From: Geminocystis sp. NIES-3709
GTDB lineage: Bacteria > Cyanobacteriota > Cyanobacteriia > Cyanobacteriales > Cyanobacteriaceae
Assembly: GCF_001548115.1 (NCBI RefSeq)
Contig: NZ_AP014821.1
Coordinates: forward strand, 806,001 to 870,000
Reading direction: 5' to 3'
Length of the DNA: 64,000 bases
Shown: positions 46,034 to 64,000 of the stretch, one piece after another
Position numbering within the stretch: position 1 is the first letter of the stretch
Layout of the letters: each line of letters opens with the position of its first letter
Position numbers and translations under genes: made by a program
Notes under the pieces: model-generated
Seen by the model: the letters and a program-made list of their open reading frames with translations, nothing else
Told to the model about the DNA's origin: nothing
Database searches by the model: none

Positions 46034-46123
46034 ACAATTTAATTGAACTCACAAGATAGATGAACTCACAAGATAGATAAATTATTAATTATTTCCTTAA
46101 AAAATATTAAACAGAGGTAGAAA

Positions 46124-56432: not shown

Positions 56433-57800
56433 CTAAGATATTTTCAATCGTGTTTTTAAATTATCACGAGCAACATAAATAATTGTTTTACCTTTTCTTG
56501 CTTTAGTCGCTAAAAATAAATCTTTTTCAACTAATTGATTAAGATAATTTCTAGCTGTATTTGGTGTTAAACCTAAATCATTAGCGACTTGTTGAGCAGT
56601 AAATTCTTTACCGATATTTTTTAAGGCTTGTTTTAAAATTTCTAGGTGATTTTTATTTAATGTTTTGGCAACAATACTATTATCAATCCAGTCCATAAAT
56701 TCATAAAATTCAGTTTTTTTCTTGTCTATATATTCATATAAAGAATTAATGGCTTTAATGATTATATCTACTTGATGGTAAAGAAAATAAGTAAGATCAA
56801 AATCATCTGTTTCCACATAAATAAAGGCTTTATCATAATCATTTCTTTTCTGCTGAATAAATTTACTAATAGATATATATTCAAATAACCAATAACCAGA
56901 TTTTAGGATACTCCAATAAAAAATTGCTCTAGCAGTTCTACCATTTCCATCAGCAAAAGGATGAATATAAGCAATCATAAAATGTAAAATAATTGCCTTT
57001 ATAATAGGATGAATAAAATTACTATAATTATCACTATTATTATCTATTGTATTAGCAAACTCACATAGTTCTTGTAATCTTTCCACAATGGTTTGATAAT
57101 CTGGAGGGTGAAAGGAATTTTCATTATATAAATCAGAAACAAAAATATTATTATTATTTCTAAACTCTCCTGCTGTACCTTCATTTTCGATCGCATTATG
57201 AACAGCAATTTTATGCAATTCTAAAATAAATTCTATGGATAATTCCTCATCTTTTTTTTCCACAACTTTTTTCATCAACAGATAATTATTTAAAATCATT
57301 TGTTGTGATTTATCTTGAGGAGGAAGATTTTTACTAAGCATTTCTTTCGCCACTGTGCGAGTGGTTGATGCACCTTCAAGTTGAGAAGAAGTTATTGCTT
57401 CTTCCTGTATTAAACTTTGAACAAGGTAACGATTTTTTTCTGATTTAGTCACTAAATTACCATCACTAATATCTTTTCCTCCTCCTGTTAATTTATCGAT
57501 TTTATGGAGTTGAGCAAATAATGATTCAGGTACACAATAATGAAATACAGTATCTTTTTCTGCTTGTAATGGTAATTTTTTAGCAATGGAAGCCCGTGCC
57601 ATTTTTGTCGCAATCCATGCTAAATCTTCATTATCACCTTTTTTTACTCTCCATTGAAATTGATCCCAGTGTAAATATCTTCCTTTAGAATCGATCGATC
57701 TATATTCTGATTGTAATAAGAAAAACTCGTTATATTTTATTCCATTATTAATATTCTTTAAAAGTTGAGATACTGATTTTGGCTTTCTAATTTTTCCCAT
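56433..57800 (-). CDS. Fic-family protein with C-terminal winged helix
   Basis: A 455-residue Fic protein that would transfer AMP (or another nucleotide part) to a target protein. The active-site motif HPFADGNGRTARAIF is intact. The auto-inhibitory helix motif [S/T]xxxE[G/N] is present upstream as SSQLEG, in SSQLEGASTTRTVAK, so it is a class II, self-inhibited Fic. The C-terminus holds a helix-turn-helix (EFTAQQVANDLGLTPNTARN). I use the ATG at 57800; a GTG nine bases earlier is also in frame. Confidence 0.92.
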   Translation of the reverse strand: MGKIRKPKSVSQLLKNINNGIKYNEFFLLQSEYRSIDSKGRYLHWDQFQWRVKKGDNEDLAWIATKMARASIAKKLPLQAEKDTVFHYCVPESLFAQLHKIDKLTGGGKDISDGNLVTKSEKNRYLVQSLIQEEAITSSQLEGASTTRTVAKEMLSKNLPPQDKSQQMILNNYLLMKKVVEKKDEELSIEFILELHKIAVHNAIENEGTAGEFRNNNNIFVSDLYNENSFHPPDYQTIVERLQELCEFANTIDNNSDNYSNFIHPIIKAIILHFMIAYIHPFADGNGRTARAIFYWSILKSGYWLFEYISISKFIQQKRNDYDKAFIYVETDDFDLTYFLYHQVDIIIKAINSLYEYIDKKKTEFYEFMDWIDNSIVAKTLNKNHLEILKQALKNIGKEFTAQQVANDLGLTPNTARNYLNQLVEKDLFLATKARKGKTIIYVARDNLKTRLKIS

Positions 57801-58154
57801 TACAACCACATAAACTAAATTTTTGATTTTTGAGTTTATTTTAATTATAGGGAAAGAAAACGTAATTTTGTTAAATTGATTTTAGGCTACAATATCGATC
57901 GATGAAAGATGATAATTCATCCACTGTTTGTATGAGGATAAGACAGGATTCAAGGATTAACAAGATTTTTTCTTCTCATGTATTCGTTGATTATCAAATA
58001 ATTTAGATTATTCATAAGAAAAACCAAAGCATTATCAACAACTATCGTGAATATTCTTTAGTTTTGTAAATCCTGATGCTGACATTACAGAATATTAAAT
58101 ATCACATAAGCCAGTTCACTGATATTAATTAACCTACACGAGAAAGATCATTAT
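57801..58154. other. Gene-free region
   Basis: About 350 bases between the Fic gene and the EACC1-like gene. AT-rich; no credible frame. A CGATCGATG sequence near 57900 is one of the HIP1-type sites. No RNA signature recognised. Confidence 0.4.
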
Positions 58155-58988
58155 TTATTCAGAAATCAAAGATAGAATTTCTTTTTTAAATTTATCAAAA
58201 ACATTAAGTTTTTCTACTTCATAACGAACATATCCTATATTATCTATGATTTTAATTTGATTAGATATTTCAATAAAAGCAAACAAGTTTTCTTTTTCTA
58301 AAGAACCAAAAATCTCTTGACAATGTTTAACTTCTTCTATAACTAAATAGTTACTTTGTGTTTTAGAAAATAAAAGAAAATCAAGTAAATTGATTTGCTC
58401 CAATTTGATTTCATAGATGACGATTGATTGCTCTTTTAATTCATATTCTAAATGAATCAGTTTTCTAATATTTTTAAGACGATTTTTTAAATCAAATAAT
58501 AATGATTTAATTATCATCAATTGTTGTGTTTTTTCTAGATCTTCTTGAAGAAGAAGTGTTTTTTTATGTACTAAAATCTTATCAGTTAGATTTTCAACTA
58601 ATTTTATACATTTTTTCTTTTCTGCTTTTGTTATGTTTGATGGAATGTTGAGATTTATTTGCTCACCGTCACTACTGCTTATATTTAAAGAAATTGTGGT
58701 TTTATCAGATTCACATACATCTTTTTTGCGAATCATTTCTTGTATGTTAATTTTAGCTTCCTGTATTTTAATTATAGAAAGCACAATACTCATTATCTGA
58801 GCCACTGTGCCTGCTCCATAAAAGCTACATCGAAGTACTGGCAAAATTTGCTGTATATCAATACTATCCGCTCTATATTCACTAATAGTAGTATTTATTT
58901 TAATATTACTCTCTTTATAATTTTCTTTTATTAATTGCTCAATCTTCTCTAAATCATTACGTAACCCAGAAATTCTAATTTTAGTCAT
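58155..58988 (-). CDS. Unknown protein; N-terminal half resembles EACC1 effector-associated family
   Basis: A 277-residue protein. Residues 1-50 are an alpha/beta start (MTKIRISGLRNDLEKIEQLI). Residues 56-73 are a Gly-Ala-flanked hydrophobic helix (FYGAGTVAQIMSIVLSII). Residues 99-115 give two beta strands around SSSDGEQ (ISLNISSSDGEQINLNI). This order (short alpha/beta, hydrophobic helix, strand-DG-strand, helix) is that of EACC1 effector-associated components of bacterial conflict systems. The C-terminal 140 residues, helical then beta-rich, match nothing I know. Resemblance is a layout match, not proven. Confidence 0.45.
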   Translation of the reverse strand: MTKIRISGLRNDLEKIEQLIKENYKESNIKINTTISEYRADSIDIQQILPVLRCSFYGAGTVAQIMSIVLSIIKIQEAKINIQEMIRKKDVCESDKTTISLNISSSDGEQINLNIPSNITKAEKKKCIKLVENLTDKILVHKKTLLLQEDLEKTQQLMIIKSLLFDLKNRLKNIRKLIHLEYELKEQSIVIYEIKLEQINLLDFLLFSKTQSNYLVIEEVKHCQEIFGSLEKENLFAFIEISNQIKIIDNIGYVRYEVEKLNVFDKFKKEILSLISE

Positions 58989-59059: not shown

Positions 59060-62000
59060 CTAAACAGCAACTCCCTCTAATTCATCCTCAGTTTTCTCGT
59101 ATAAATCTTTAAGTTTATCTAACTTCTCCTCATCTGCATCCCAAAAACCGCGCCCATTCGCCTCCAACATCCGCCCTACAATATTGCGGAAGGCTTCGGG
59201 ATTCGCTTCCCTTAACTTATTCGCCATGTCTTGATCTAATACATAAGTATCAACCGCTTGATCATATACCCAATTATCGGTAAAATCCGCTACTCCTCCC
59301 CAACCAATTAAAGCCGTCATCCGTTGAGAGATTTCGTAAGCACCACCAGAACCCTGATCAGCCATAGCTTTCGCCCATTTGGGGTTAAGTAATTTAGTGC
59401 GGTATTCCATGCGCAAAACTTGGTCTAATTTGCGGGGAGTGGTATCCTGAGAGAAACTTTCCACAAAACTAGCCGTTACCTTCTTACTGCTTTGTTTTTC
59501 CGCCGATCGCTTCAAGCCTCCTGTGTTAGCATAATATTCTTGAATATCCGTCAAACCATATTCAACAGAATCGATTTCCTGCACCACCGTAGCGCTAGTT
59601 TCTAATAGTTTATCTAAAATTTCGGGGCGGGTTTGCCCTTTATCCTTTCTACCGTAGCTGAAAACATTGCGACTTTTCCATGTATCCGCTAATTCATCTC
59701 CTGAATCCCAGTTACCATCCACCACTCGATCGTTTACTAACGAGCCAAAATCACCGCTAGGATTAGAAAATAGTCGTGCGGAGGGGTTATCGATCCCTTT
59801 TTGCTGTAATTCTAAATAATGTTTGCGAATAAAGTTATTTTCGATCGATTCTTCCGCAGTAGAAGCACGGTAAAATAAATCATCCAACAATTCGATAATA
59901 TTAGTAAAAGTATCACGGAAAATCCCCGATAAATTGCCCAAAACATCGATGCGCGGATGCCCGACTTTTTCCAATGGCATTAACTCATATCTTACTATAC
60001 GCCCGGTACCTTCTTTAACAGGCTCTGCTCCCACTAATTCTAGTAAAATGCCGATCGACTCCCCCTTAGTTTTAATGGCATCTAAACCCCATAACATGAG
60101 GGCGACGGTTTCAGGATAACTGCCGTTTTCTGCTAAATTTTGCTCAATAATCTTCTTACCAATCTCCCTACCTCTTAAATACGCACCCTGAGAAGGCATC
60201 CGATAGGGATCTAATGCGTGGATGTTACGACCCGTAGGTAGGACTCCAGCACCATCTCGCAGTAAATCACCGCCGGGTGCAGGGGGGATATATTCACCGT
60301 TTAAACCTCTTAATAGATTAGTCAATTCGTCTTCCGTTTGCATTAACAAGTCACTGATTAACTGTTGTTGTGCAAAACGTTGCTTTAATTCTTCTTCTTT
60401 TTCGGCTTTCTTCTCAACTCTGGCGAATAAATCACTATTATTTAACTCTTGGGCGAAGTTTTTTTGACTATAAGTATCATTAAAATAAGCCTCAAGGTAA
60501 GATTGCAGTTGCTCTGGATTGGGTTTTTCTCCTAAGATGTGTAAACCAGAAGAAAATAATCTTTGCTCGACAATTTGCAAATAGTCATAAATTTGGACAA
60601 AATAATCGTTAAGTGCCTGTTTACTAAATAACTTGGCATTGTCAGCAGTAAATTCGATACCTAGCTTTTCCCCTTCGGTAAATTTGCAATCTTTATATAA
60701 GCCACTATCGACTATTTTTTGGATAATATCCCCTTTTAATGGCTGATTTTTCTCTGTATCTTCTCGATACTCGTTAATTAACTCTTTTAATGCCATTAAC
60801 TCTTTATATAACCCTGCCCTACCGTAAGGAGGTACATTATGAGAGATAATCACACCATAACCCCGTCTTTTTGCCAACATGGATTCTGAGGGATTATTGG
60901 CGGCGTAAATGTAGAGGTTAGGAATATCGCCCAATAGTACATCTGACCACGAGTATCCCGTATTACCAAGAGGATTACCCGGCAACCATTCTACTGTGCC
61001 GTGCATTCCGAAGTGTATAATCGCATCGGCTTGAAAGTCATTTTGCAACCATTTATAAAAAGCTGTGTATTGGGGATGGGGTGTTAAATCCTTTTCAAAC
61101 ATAAGCCTCATGGGATCTCCCGCTATACCGAGAGGAGGTTGTACTCCAATCCAGACGTTACCCAATTGAATACCGCCGATTTGGAATTTGTCACCGATGG
61201 TTTTTATGCCTGTTTGAGTAAGATTTCCCCATTGTTTTTGGATTTTATTTATTAGTATATACCCTAACCATCGATCGAGGGTCTTCACATCAACAGTATT
61301 AGAGTTAATAGTTAATAGTGACTTGTCAATAGTTAAATTACCTTCTGCCTTCTGCCTTCTGCCTTCTGCCTTTCCTGAATAGGAGATAAAATCATCGGCA
61401 GTTTTGACTTGTTTAAGAATTTCCTCGCCGTTTTCGGGAATATTATCAACGTTATAACCTTCTTCCTTCAATGCTGTTAGTAATTTTTGCAAAGATTTAG
61501 GCACATTTAATAATGCGGCTGTGCCAGTAGCACCGTAACCGGGAGGGAAACCATATAAAATAATAGCAACTTTTCGATCGAACTTCTCCTTTCTTCTTAA
61601 CTTAATCCAGTTATTAACTCTACCAGTGAGACGCTTCACTCTTTCAGGAATAAGGTATATATCTTCTCCCACTAAACCACCCAATGGCACGGTATCGATC
61701 GAACCATCTAACTCAGGTAAAGCGTATAATACCACACTTTGCAAACCACCGATACCCTTTCTTACCCATGAGTGAATATCTTGGATTAACAAAGGCGCGG
61801 CGACAATGTAGGGAATGTTTTTCGCCGTTAAGATACGTTTTGCCACTTCTACCTGTCTGCCACCCTCCATACTACCAGCAGGGCCACCCACCAAAGGAAA
61901 TCCAATAGTAGATACGATCGCATCTACCTTTACCGCATCTTTTGATAACGAGGGAGTTTCATTAATACCCTGACTACGTTTTTCTTGTTCATAATCTGTT

Positions 62001-62887
62001 GTCATCCAATCTCTTACAGCCACATGACCTTCTACTCCATTAATGAAAATGGGAAGGGGAATCAATCCTGCTTCTTCAAAGTAACGGATAAGTTGAGGAA
62101 TATAAGGTAGTTTACTGATAACGTGCTTACGATATAACAAAACCCCCACTGTTGGCAACAACGTTTTACTACTTTCTCCCCCTATCTCCCTATCCACCTT
62201 TCCCCCCATCTTCCCTTGATACCAACTCAAATACTCACTAGGAGAAGTGAAATAACCCTCATAGTCAGGATGAAGTAAACCCATATTAGGAGTTTCGATG
62301 ACGGGAGGAATTTCCGATACCTTTAAACCGAGATAATTTTCCGCTAAATACCAACACATAGAGGCAACATTATCAACCCCTCCTGCATTCCAATAACCGT
62401 AAATAATCAACCAGTTGCGTAAATCTTGGACTTTTTTGACGGGAATGTATTTTAATAATTTAGGTCCTGTTTTTAAGAAGCTGATATATCCTGCAAGTTT
62501 ATCTTCTTCTTTGCTATTGGTAAACTTACTCAAGATGAATTGTACAGGTTTAGGGATCCCTTTTGGTTTATCACCGATGGCAAATTTGCCTATTTGAGTC
62601 AAACTCATCAACTCTAAAGCCGACTCGAAAACTAAACGAATGGGAATATTACTTACTTTTTCCCTCAACCACATTACTTGATCATAATCAAAAATGAGAC
62701 TAGCAAAAAAAACGTCAGCAGTTTTTAAGGCGGATTCAACCTTTTCTTTTTCGGTGTTGATATTCTCATCACTGAAGACGATTACTTCTAAATTGTCACA
62801 CCTTGATGTAGCGAGATTTGCTGATTGAAGATATAAACCAGTGTTGAAGGTTTCAAATCCTGTAATTAAAACTATGCGTTTCATCAT
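59060..62887 (-). CDS. chlH: ChlH, magnesium chelatase subunit H
   Basis: The porphyrin-binding large subunit (about 1275 residues) of Mg-chelatase, which with ChlI and ChlD inserts Mg2+ into protoporphyrin IX. It starts MMKRIVLITGFETFNTGLY at 62887 after AAGG. Diagnostic stretches: GVLLYRKHVISKLPYIPQLI, IGFPLVGGPAGSMEGGRQVE, IHFGMHGTVEWLPGNPLGNT, NPSESMLAKRRGYGVIISHN, GGAYEISQRMTALIGWGGVA and LLNPKWAKAMADQGSGGAY. Two low-complexity, in-frame insertions occur at residues about 224-238 and 507-529 and are separate features. It forms a single-gene unit. Confidence 0.95.
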   Translation of the reverse strand: MMKRIVLITGFETFNTGLYLQSANLATSRCDNLEVIVFSDENINTEKEKVESALKTADVFFASLIFDYDQVMWLREKVSNIPIRLVFESALELMSLTQIGKFAIGDKPKGIPKPVQFILSKFTNSKEEDKLAGYISFLKTGPKLLKYIPVKKVQDLRNWLIIYGYWNAGGVDNVASMCWYLAENYLGLKVSEIPPVIETPNMGLLHPDYEGYFTSPSEYLSWYQGKMGGKVDREIGGESSKTLLPTVGVLLYRKHVISKLPYIPQLIRYFEEAGLIPLPIFINGVEGHVAVRDWMTTDYEQEKRSQGINETPSLSKDAVKVDAIVSTIGFPLVGGPAGSMEGGRQVEVAKRILTAKNIPYIVAAPLLIQDIHSWVRKGIGGLQSVVLYALPELDGSIDTVPLGGLVGEDIYLIPERVKRLTGRVNNWIKLRRKEKFDRKVAIILYGFPPGYGATGTAALLNVPKSLQKLLTALKEEGYNVDNIPENGEEILKQVKTADDFISYSGKAEGRRQKAEGNLTIDKSLLTINSNTVDVKTLDRWLGYILINKIQKQWGNLTQTGIKTIGDKFQIGGIQLGNVWIGVQPPLGIAGDPMRLMFEKDLTPHPQYTAFYKWLQNDFQADAIIHFGMHGTVEWLPGNPLGNTGYSWSDVLLGDIPNLYIYAANNPSESMLAKRRGYGVIISHNVPPYGRAGLYKELMALKELINEYREDTEKNQPLKGDIIQKIVDSGLYKDCKFTEGEKLGIEFTADNAKLFSKQALNDYFVQIYDYLQIVEQRLFSSGLHILGEKPNPEQLQSYLEAYFNDTYSQKNFAQELNNSDLFARVEKKAEKEEELKQRFAQQQLISDLLMQTEDELTNLLRGLNGEYIPPAPGGDLLRDGAGVLPTGRNIHALDPYRMPSQGAYLRGREIGKKIIEQNLAENGSYPETVALMLWGLDAIKTKGESIGILLELVGAEPVKEGTGRIVRYELMPLEKVGHPRIDVLGNLSGIFRDTFTNIIELLDDLFYRASTAEESIENNFIRKHYLELQQKGIDNPSARLFSNPSGDFGSLVNDRVVDGNWDSGDELADTWKSRNVFSYGRKDKGQTRPEILDKLLETSATVVQEIDSVEYGLTDIQEYYANTGGLKRSAEKQSSKKVTASFVESFSQDTTPRKLDQVLRMEYRTKLLNPKWAKAMADQGSGGAYEISQRMTALIGWGGVADFTDNWVYDQAVDTYVLDQDMANKLREANPEAFRNIVGRMLEANGRGFWDADEEKLDKLKDLYEKTEDELEGVAV
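61300..61368 (-). repeat. In-frame heptamer repeat within chlH
   Basis: On the plus strand CCTTCTG is repeated four times (61341-61368), next to GTTAATA-type heptamers (61305-61340). In the chlH frame it encodes AEGRRQKAEG, a heptapeptide-type repeat because 7 and 3 are coprime. It lies in a variable loop region of ChlH. Confidence 0.85.
62172..62215 (-). repeat. Second in-frame low-complexity insertion within chlH
   Basis: A pyrimidine-rich plus-strand stretch (CTTTCTCCCCCTATCTCCC...) encodes a Gly/Lys/Glu-rich stretch KMGGKVDREIGGESSK, just before the conserved GVLLYRKH motif. It resembles intergenic GGGAGA-type repeats of cyanobacteria. Confidence 0.6.
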
Positions 62888-63052
62888 CTTTGCCTTTTCA
62901 AGAATCTTTTTTTTTGTTAAGTAATGTAAACATTCTAACAAGTGATGAAAAACTTAACTTCATAATCTCATGAGGATAACCGACAAATAATCAAAACCCT
63001 TTGCGTCTTTATGAGTGATAAAAATCTTACCATGAAGTTTCAAAAAATGGAC

Positions 63053-63263: not shown

Positions 63264-64000
63264 TTATGCCCAAATAAACCCTAAACTAGCTTTATATAAA
63301 CTAAATACTTCCACATTGTCTTTTAACCATTGAAAAAAGCGAAAAGACACAGCATTACGAAACGCTTCCAATGCCTCAGCAAAAGTATTTAACGGTTTAT
63401 TCCCCCATTGTCTTCTTAAACCTCCTGTCAAACGATGCCATTGAATAAAAGTGTAGGCACAAAATACCAAGATAAAATGTCTCATTAAACTTCTTTTATT
63501 TCTCACTTGGTATTGTGATAACCCTAACCATCCCTTGATTTCACGGTAAAATACTTCTATCCAATTTCTTTGTGTATAAGTTTCTACTATCCAATTTCCA
63601 CACACTTTTTCTCCTATTTCATTAGTCATTAAATAATCAATATCTGTGGAATTTTCAAAAGTATCTGCATTCATGACGATAGCTACAGTTTTTATTCCCG
63701 ACAAAGCTGATAATTCAATATTTATCGTTGCTACCCAAAGAGTTTTTTCTCGATTTTTTCCTATTCTTATTTTTTCAAAACTATCTTGGGGTAATGATTT
63801 TGCTATTTCAGCTATGGTTTTTTCAGACTCGATAAAATCTTGTTTTACCAATTTTACTAATCTATTTTTAGCAATAATTCCTATATATTTTAAATTCTTT
63901 TTTTCTAGTTTGCCTAATAAATTAGTATTGTTTCCATAACCACCATCCATTAAAATTATTTGGGGACAATAATTTCGATTTAAACATTTTTCAATTAAAT
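63264..64000 (-). CDS. IS701-family transposase, C-terminal part (runs off the window edge)
   Basis: The open frame continues beyond base 64000; the visible 245 residues include the fragment CLNRNYCPQIILMDGGYGNN near the window edge. The end is typical of IS701/IS4-type DDE transposases: YTQRNWIEVFYREIKGWLGL with the catalytic Glu and the YREIKGWLGLSQYQVRN signature, then FCAYTFIQWHRLTGG. A DDE Asp is likely in LMDGGYG. The gene's start and the left end of the element lie outside. Confidence 0.85.
   Translation of the reverse strand, partial: LIEKCLNRNYCPQIILMDGGYGNNTNLLGKLEKKNLKYIGIIAKNRLVKLVKQDFIESEKTIAEIAKSLPQDSFEKIRIGKNREKTLWVATINIELSALSGIKTVAIVMNADTFENSTDIDYLMTNEIGEKVCGNWIVETYTQRNWIEVFYREIKGWLGLSQYQVRNKRSLMRHFILVFCAYTFIQWHRLTGGLRRQWGNKPLNTFAEALEAFRNAVSFRFFQWLKDNVEVFSLYKASLGFIWA

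Follow-up and report, generated by a model that had tools for sequence, protein, structure and literature searches.

A CAGAAGG heptamer array and other small repeats in three variable loops of ChlH2, a cyanobacterial paralog of the magnesium-chelatase H subunit

The window analysed here, a stretch of 64,000 nucleotides from Geminocystis sp. NIES-3709, harbors a long minus-strand gene for a paralog of the H subunit of Mg-chelatase, in which two adjacent heptamer modules are translated inside the second of three variable loops. The features discussed below are the following.

59060-62941, minus strand: chlH2, an Mg-chelatase H-subunit paralog, putatively of BchH2 type, of 1293 codons counted from TTG, with a TIGR02025 match and Pfam CobN-Mg_chel, in a clade apart from ChlH1
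62156-62221, minus strand: loop 1 of ChlH2, residues 241-262, insertion-tolerant, G-rich here and holding other elements in congeners
61298-61390, minus strand: loop 2 of ChlH2, residues 518-548, insertion-tolerant, holding both heptamer modules and coinciding with a peak of the whole-gene scan
61341-61372, minus strand: heptamer array CAGAAGG (CCTTCTG on the plus strand), 4.6 units, encoding KAEGRRQKAEG
61303-61336, minus strand: degenerate TATTAAC heptamer module (GTTAATA on the plus strand), two perfect units, encoding LTIDKSLLTIN
60362-60475, minus strand: loop 3 of ChlH2, residues 823-860, conserved within Geminocystis and repeat-filled in many Nostocales

Directly upstream of chlH2, a DDE transposase (DDE_Tnp_1) is encoded at 63264-63998, its frame being open at the window end, while a 277-aa ORF without Pfam match is located downstream at 58155-58988 and holds a 21-bp direct repeat (58737-58777).

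The first-pass annotation had named the host gene as the essential chlH, a label which did not survive comparison with protein profiles and other genomes. The window ORF matched TIGR02025 (BchH) with 1523 bits and its Pfam domain was CobN-Mg_chel, whereas its 966 bits against NF009140 fell under the cut-off of 1300, which was passed by the ChlH1 of the same genome with 2252 bits. Against Synechocystis ChlH (4zhj), the window ORF gave 704 bits in two stretches, and the canonical ChlH1, located at G000:C1:2531510-2535316, gave 2569 bits over its full length; CobN is also encoded in this genome. In a quick tree, ChlH1 and ChlH2 formed separate branches with SH-aLRT values of 99-100, and two cyanobacterial H isoforms, a common ChlH1 and a patchy ChlH2, are distinguished in a published tree, as described in part of PMC10156173. 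The weak NF009140 and 4zhj scores, the canonical ChlH1 elsewhere in the genome, the separate branches and the published two-isoform tree together identify the window gene, on sequence grounds, as the paralog ChlH2, which is distinct from ChlH1. Canonical ChlH1 identity was rejected on the NF009140 score and on the absence of ChlH2 from 10 of 37 near-complete genomes, and this absence also shows the essential label to be wrong. The window gene resembles the published ChlH2/BchH2 isoform in being patchy and in occurring alongside ChlH1; loop insertions are unmentioned in the isoform passages of PMC10156173.

ChlH2 can be described as a dispensable-looking sister of ChlH. Its frame is open at full length in about 100 genomes, and when loops 1 and 2 are left aside, dN/dS values of 0.05-0.09 indicate purifying selection, which shows the gene to be functional. 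Homologs align from about residue 20 of the ORF, where an ATG pair occurs (MMKRIVLI), and translation probably begins at one of these two ATGs, residue 19 or 20 (62887 or 62884), instead of at the TTG.

The heptamer tract at 61341-61372 spans 32 bp with zero mismatches, made up of four complete CCTTCTG units and 4 further nt, and its TRF score of 64 is the second highest in the window. When the window was simulated 100 times with a third-order Markov model, the longest perfect period-7 tract reached a maximum of 22 bp with a mean of 15.8, and the observed 32-bp tract is not due to chance. The in-frame array of four CCTTCTG units in a coding loop, as described in the first pass, is real; the interval given for the repeat, 61300-61368, stops 4 nt before the end of the tract at 61372. 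The GTTAATA units reported nearby are likewise present, but just two are perfect (61304-61317) and the others in the 61303-61336 stretch are degenerate (74% match by TRF). Read on the minus strand, in frame within the 1293-codon ORF, both modules together give GKAEGRRQKAEGNLTIDKSLLTIN. Of the 16 period-7 arrays checked in the window, only the CAGAAGG and TATTAAC modules and one 2.1-copy array fall within ORFs of 100 aa or longer. An in-ORF heptamer, AATAACC x2.1, is found at 56884-56898 in a 458-aa ORF (56433-57809, minus strand), and the highest TRF score in the window belongs to a perfect 17-bp tandem duplication outside ORFs, TGAACTCACAAGATAGA x2.1, at 46044-46078.

The segment, which had been proposed for a check of uniqueness to this strain, is common to three of five Geminocystis species (G000, the present genome, with G001 and G003), and four CAGAAGG units are found in loop 2 of each. 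The ChlH2 of G003 is identical to that in the named record of Geminocystis sp. GBBB08, in agreement with the assignment to this genus. The inserts of these three differ at 3-5 positions in 87 nt, and dS over the rest of chlH2 is 0.48-0.52. In the Geminocystis genomes G002 and G004, loop 2 holds an unrelated palindromic element, CCCCAAAATTGGGG, at the same place, and in G008 and G011, from a neighbouring genus, the loop is occupied by G/C-rich palindromic elements of other kinds; the same residues are thus not shared by all relatives. Given the same four units in three species and other elements in their congeners, the array is not confined to one strain and shows no visible slippage; loop 2 changes through the exchange of one element for another, and the array length stays constant. 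The rule that only multiples of three units keep the frame is arithmetically right, but the length has not changed among the species examined, elements having been replaced instead. A phase-variable contingency locus was rejected in this species-level comparison, the unit number being four in all three carriers.

An alignment of 103 distinct cyanobacterial ChlH2 genes places these replacements in a wider frame. In a 24-gene subset, nearly all length variation of ChlH2 was concentrated in the three loops (residues 240-263, 517-548 and 822-861 in this comparison), with ranges of 41-49 aa compared with 8 for the next segment, and loop 2 spanned 4-45 aa; the largest segment length range in ChlH1 was 18 aa, measured in 23 genes of which most came from genomes of the ChlH2 subset. 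By eye, no fewer than eight repeat families could be distinguished in the translated loops, and E and R abound in the majority of loop-3 inserts of Nostocales. An AlphaFold model of ChlH2 residues 20-870 was of moderate quality (mean pLDDT 69.8), and it weakly suggests flexible loops, its low-confidence segments including loop 1 (231-240) and loop 2 (501-527 of the fragment) together with some conserved stretches. Foldseek with this model recovered ChlH 4zhj at an E-value of 4.5e-33 with poor global superposition.

The origin of the loops was investigated by BLAST against 453 kb of flanking DNA in which chlH2 was fully masked, a step that matters, as unmasked chlH2 pieces in the flanks of loci L135, L138 and L132 gave 10-13% control matches. 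Dispersed flank sequence was matched by 37 of 101 copies of loop 1, 21 of 98 of loop 2 and 19 of 93 of loop 3, and 56 of the 103 genes possess at least one repeat-matching loop; these counts refer to genes instead of independent insertions and overstate the number of events, many Nostoc loops being shared by descent. For loops 1 and 2 together, 58 of 199 matched, versus 9 of 995 random control segments of the same genes (Fisher p 4e-39, uncorrected for relatedness). Unbiased tiling of ChlH2 yielded main peaks at residues 240-279, 500-559 and 820-859, and a fourth, lower peak at 1240-1279, which came almost wholly from two loci and probably reflects leftover gene copies. The flanks of L086 and L112 match the C-terminal part of ChlH2, possibly as a second partial copy. 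Only 4 of 1463 ChlH1 tiles (0.3%) gave a match. Moreover, 39 of 42 matched flank sites lay outside ORFs, though ORFs cover 47% of the flank bases (p 5e-8). The three loops of ChlH2 have been filled repeatedly, in many cyanobacteria, by different and mostly intergenic small repeats. The first-pass proposal that an intergenic-type repeat had invaded a coding loop is borne out by the in-frame array and by the dispersed repeats in the loops of relatives.

Several of the loop elements were traced to repeat families of their genomes. Across the order, 109 of 391 genomes contain three consecutive CAGAAGG units, with up to 685 matches and few for the reversed control. In the own genome and in its family, no perfect CAGAAGG x3 was found outside chlH2; the only relatives in the own genome are about nine other degenerate two-unit sites with up to two mismatches, and these do not prove a recent local donor of the array. 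The second module may be a dispersed repeat; the exact pattern GTTAATAGTTAATA was found 9 times in the AT-rich own genome versus 15 for the reversed control, which is no enrichment. Genomic matches to the loop-2 palindrome of G002 and G004 number 63 and 25 in the two genomes that carry it, compared with 0-3 in each of five others searched. For the CCCCCC..GGGGGG element of loop 1, there are 9-45 matches in G002, G003, G004, G008 and G011 and 2 each in G000 and G001. Carrier genomes hold tens of matches to the palindrome GTAGAGACGTTGCATGCAACGTCTCTAC seen in Nostocales loops, and Anabaena azotica has 65 near-exact copies. Two further observations concern individual loci: loop 1 of the Nostoc ChlH2 genes L081 and L125 contains CAGRAGG-like heptamers, which apparently entered independently of Geminocystis loop 2, and in L127, L094, L090 and L076 one 28-bp palindrome is found in both loops 1 and 2 of a gene, in two different frames.

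The reading frames used by these elements are informative about how they were retained. All six frames of the CAGAAGG unit are free of stops, so that an array of whatever length can be translated, while TATTAAC brings a TAA in every 21-nt cycle, which caps an array in its chlH2 frame at about two units. The Nostoc palindrome is read as CRDVACNVST in loop 1 and VETLHATSL in loop 2, which are its two open frames, and its third frame, which holds a TAG, was not seen in the translated loops of the ChlH2 genes aligned. Such use of open frames only is what insertion at the DNA level followed by selection predicts. In addition, all four combinations of loop-1 and loop-2 types occur among the four congeners G001-G004, and the trees of three chlH2 segments conflict, most conflicting branches having supports of 0.87-1.0. 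The gene is a mosaic, which means that identical arrays may have been passed on by exchange in addition to descent.

The array probably belongs to a large set of small dispersed cyanobacterial repeats that have settled, in frame, at three loops of ChlH2 where insertions are tolerated. Mostly intergenic repeats, such as heptamer arrays and short palindromes, would be copied or inserted at many places; insertion would be lethal or costly in most genes and in most parts of ChlH2, and stop-free, frame-restoring insertions in the three tolerant loops would survive selection, after which recombination between related species would shuffle the loops. A filter on random insertions is favoured over targeted insertion, and the loops themselves would contribute little function; where a single loop is concerned, targeted insertion, or slippage in situ from a short seed, would produce a similar picture. 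Active selection for filled loops, as linkers or docking segments of useful length or charge for which repeats were the raw material, is considered unlikely: the loop-2 insert is indeed as conserved as its surroundings in three Geminocystis species, and the charged residues of most Nostocales loop-3 inserts would suit such a role, but one and the same loop holds widely differing peptides, and loops as short as 8-14 aa occur often, with no apparent harm. It is also rather improbable that the loops are interchangeable cassettes, swapped by recombination so as to alter partner contacts, with selfish repeats supplying regulatory linkers.

Tandem 7-base units can slip and steps of three units keep the frame, which lent some appeal to the first-pass idea of a slippage-prone sensor, a contingency locus whose heptamer count would vary between strains and tune ChlH2 by frame or loop length. 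However, the array is short, it has kept four units in all three carriers despite dS of about 0.5, and other species hold an unrelated element instead of a longer or shorter array, so the locus does not look slippage-prone; the sensor was without support, and this explanation is very unlikely. An ancient conserved functional loop can hardly be entertained, for the position of the loop is constant in the alignment, but its sequence and length are wholly different between relatives (8-53 aa for loop 2). That ChlH2 is a decaying pseudogene tolerating anything, as its patchy presence might suggest, is scarcely credible in view of the open frames, the low dN/dS and the limitation of inserts to three loops.

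The dispersed-repeat reading is related to several known systems. STRR heptanucleotide tandem repeats have been described from Calothrix PCC 7601 and Nostoc PCC 7120 (discussed in PMC4692102), and the present array resembles them in its perfect 7-bp tandem units, about four in number and dispersed in cyanobacteria; STRRs are mostly intergenic, whereas the ChlH2 array interrupts a conserved protein midway, and its genome has no other perfect copy. Rickettsia palindromic elements (Ogata 2000, 2002; summarised in PMC10969869) are a known analogue, for they too are small repeats that have entered protein genes without breaking the frame and are translated; they are about 100-150 bp, carry a conserved peptide of their own and occur in many genes, whereas ChlH2 has unrelated short families in three loops of one protein. 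Membership of the CAGAAGG array in this group was rejected, as it is non-palindromic and 32 bp long; short palindromes occur in the loops of some other species. In TAACTGA heptamer repeats (PMC4679880), as in the present case, stop-codon content decides which orientation is possible in coding sequence; they are situated mainly upstream of start codons, whereas CAGAAGG, a unit free of stops, is found within a gene. In the open-access literature searched, no report of the repeat-filled loop pattern of ChlH2 was found.

ChlH2 and ChlH1 constitute a natural experiment on non-coding repeats becoming protein, the two sharing the same fold in the same or related genomes, with ChlH2 filled at three loops and ChlH1 not. 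When a cyanobacterial protein contains a peptide like AEGRRQK, PPLIRGE or CRDAINRVST, that peptide can be a translated repeat, and the loops of ChlH2 may be read as a record of the repeat families active in a lineage.
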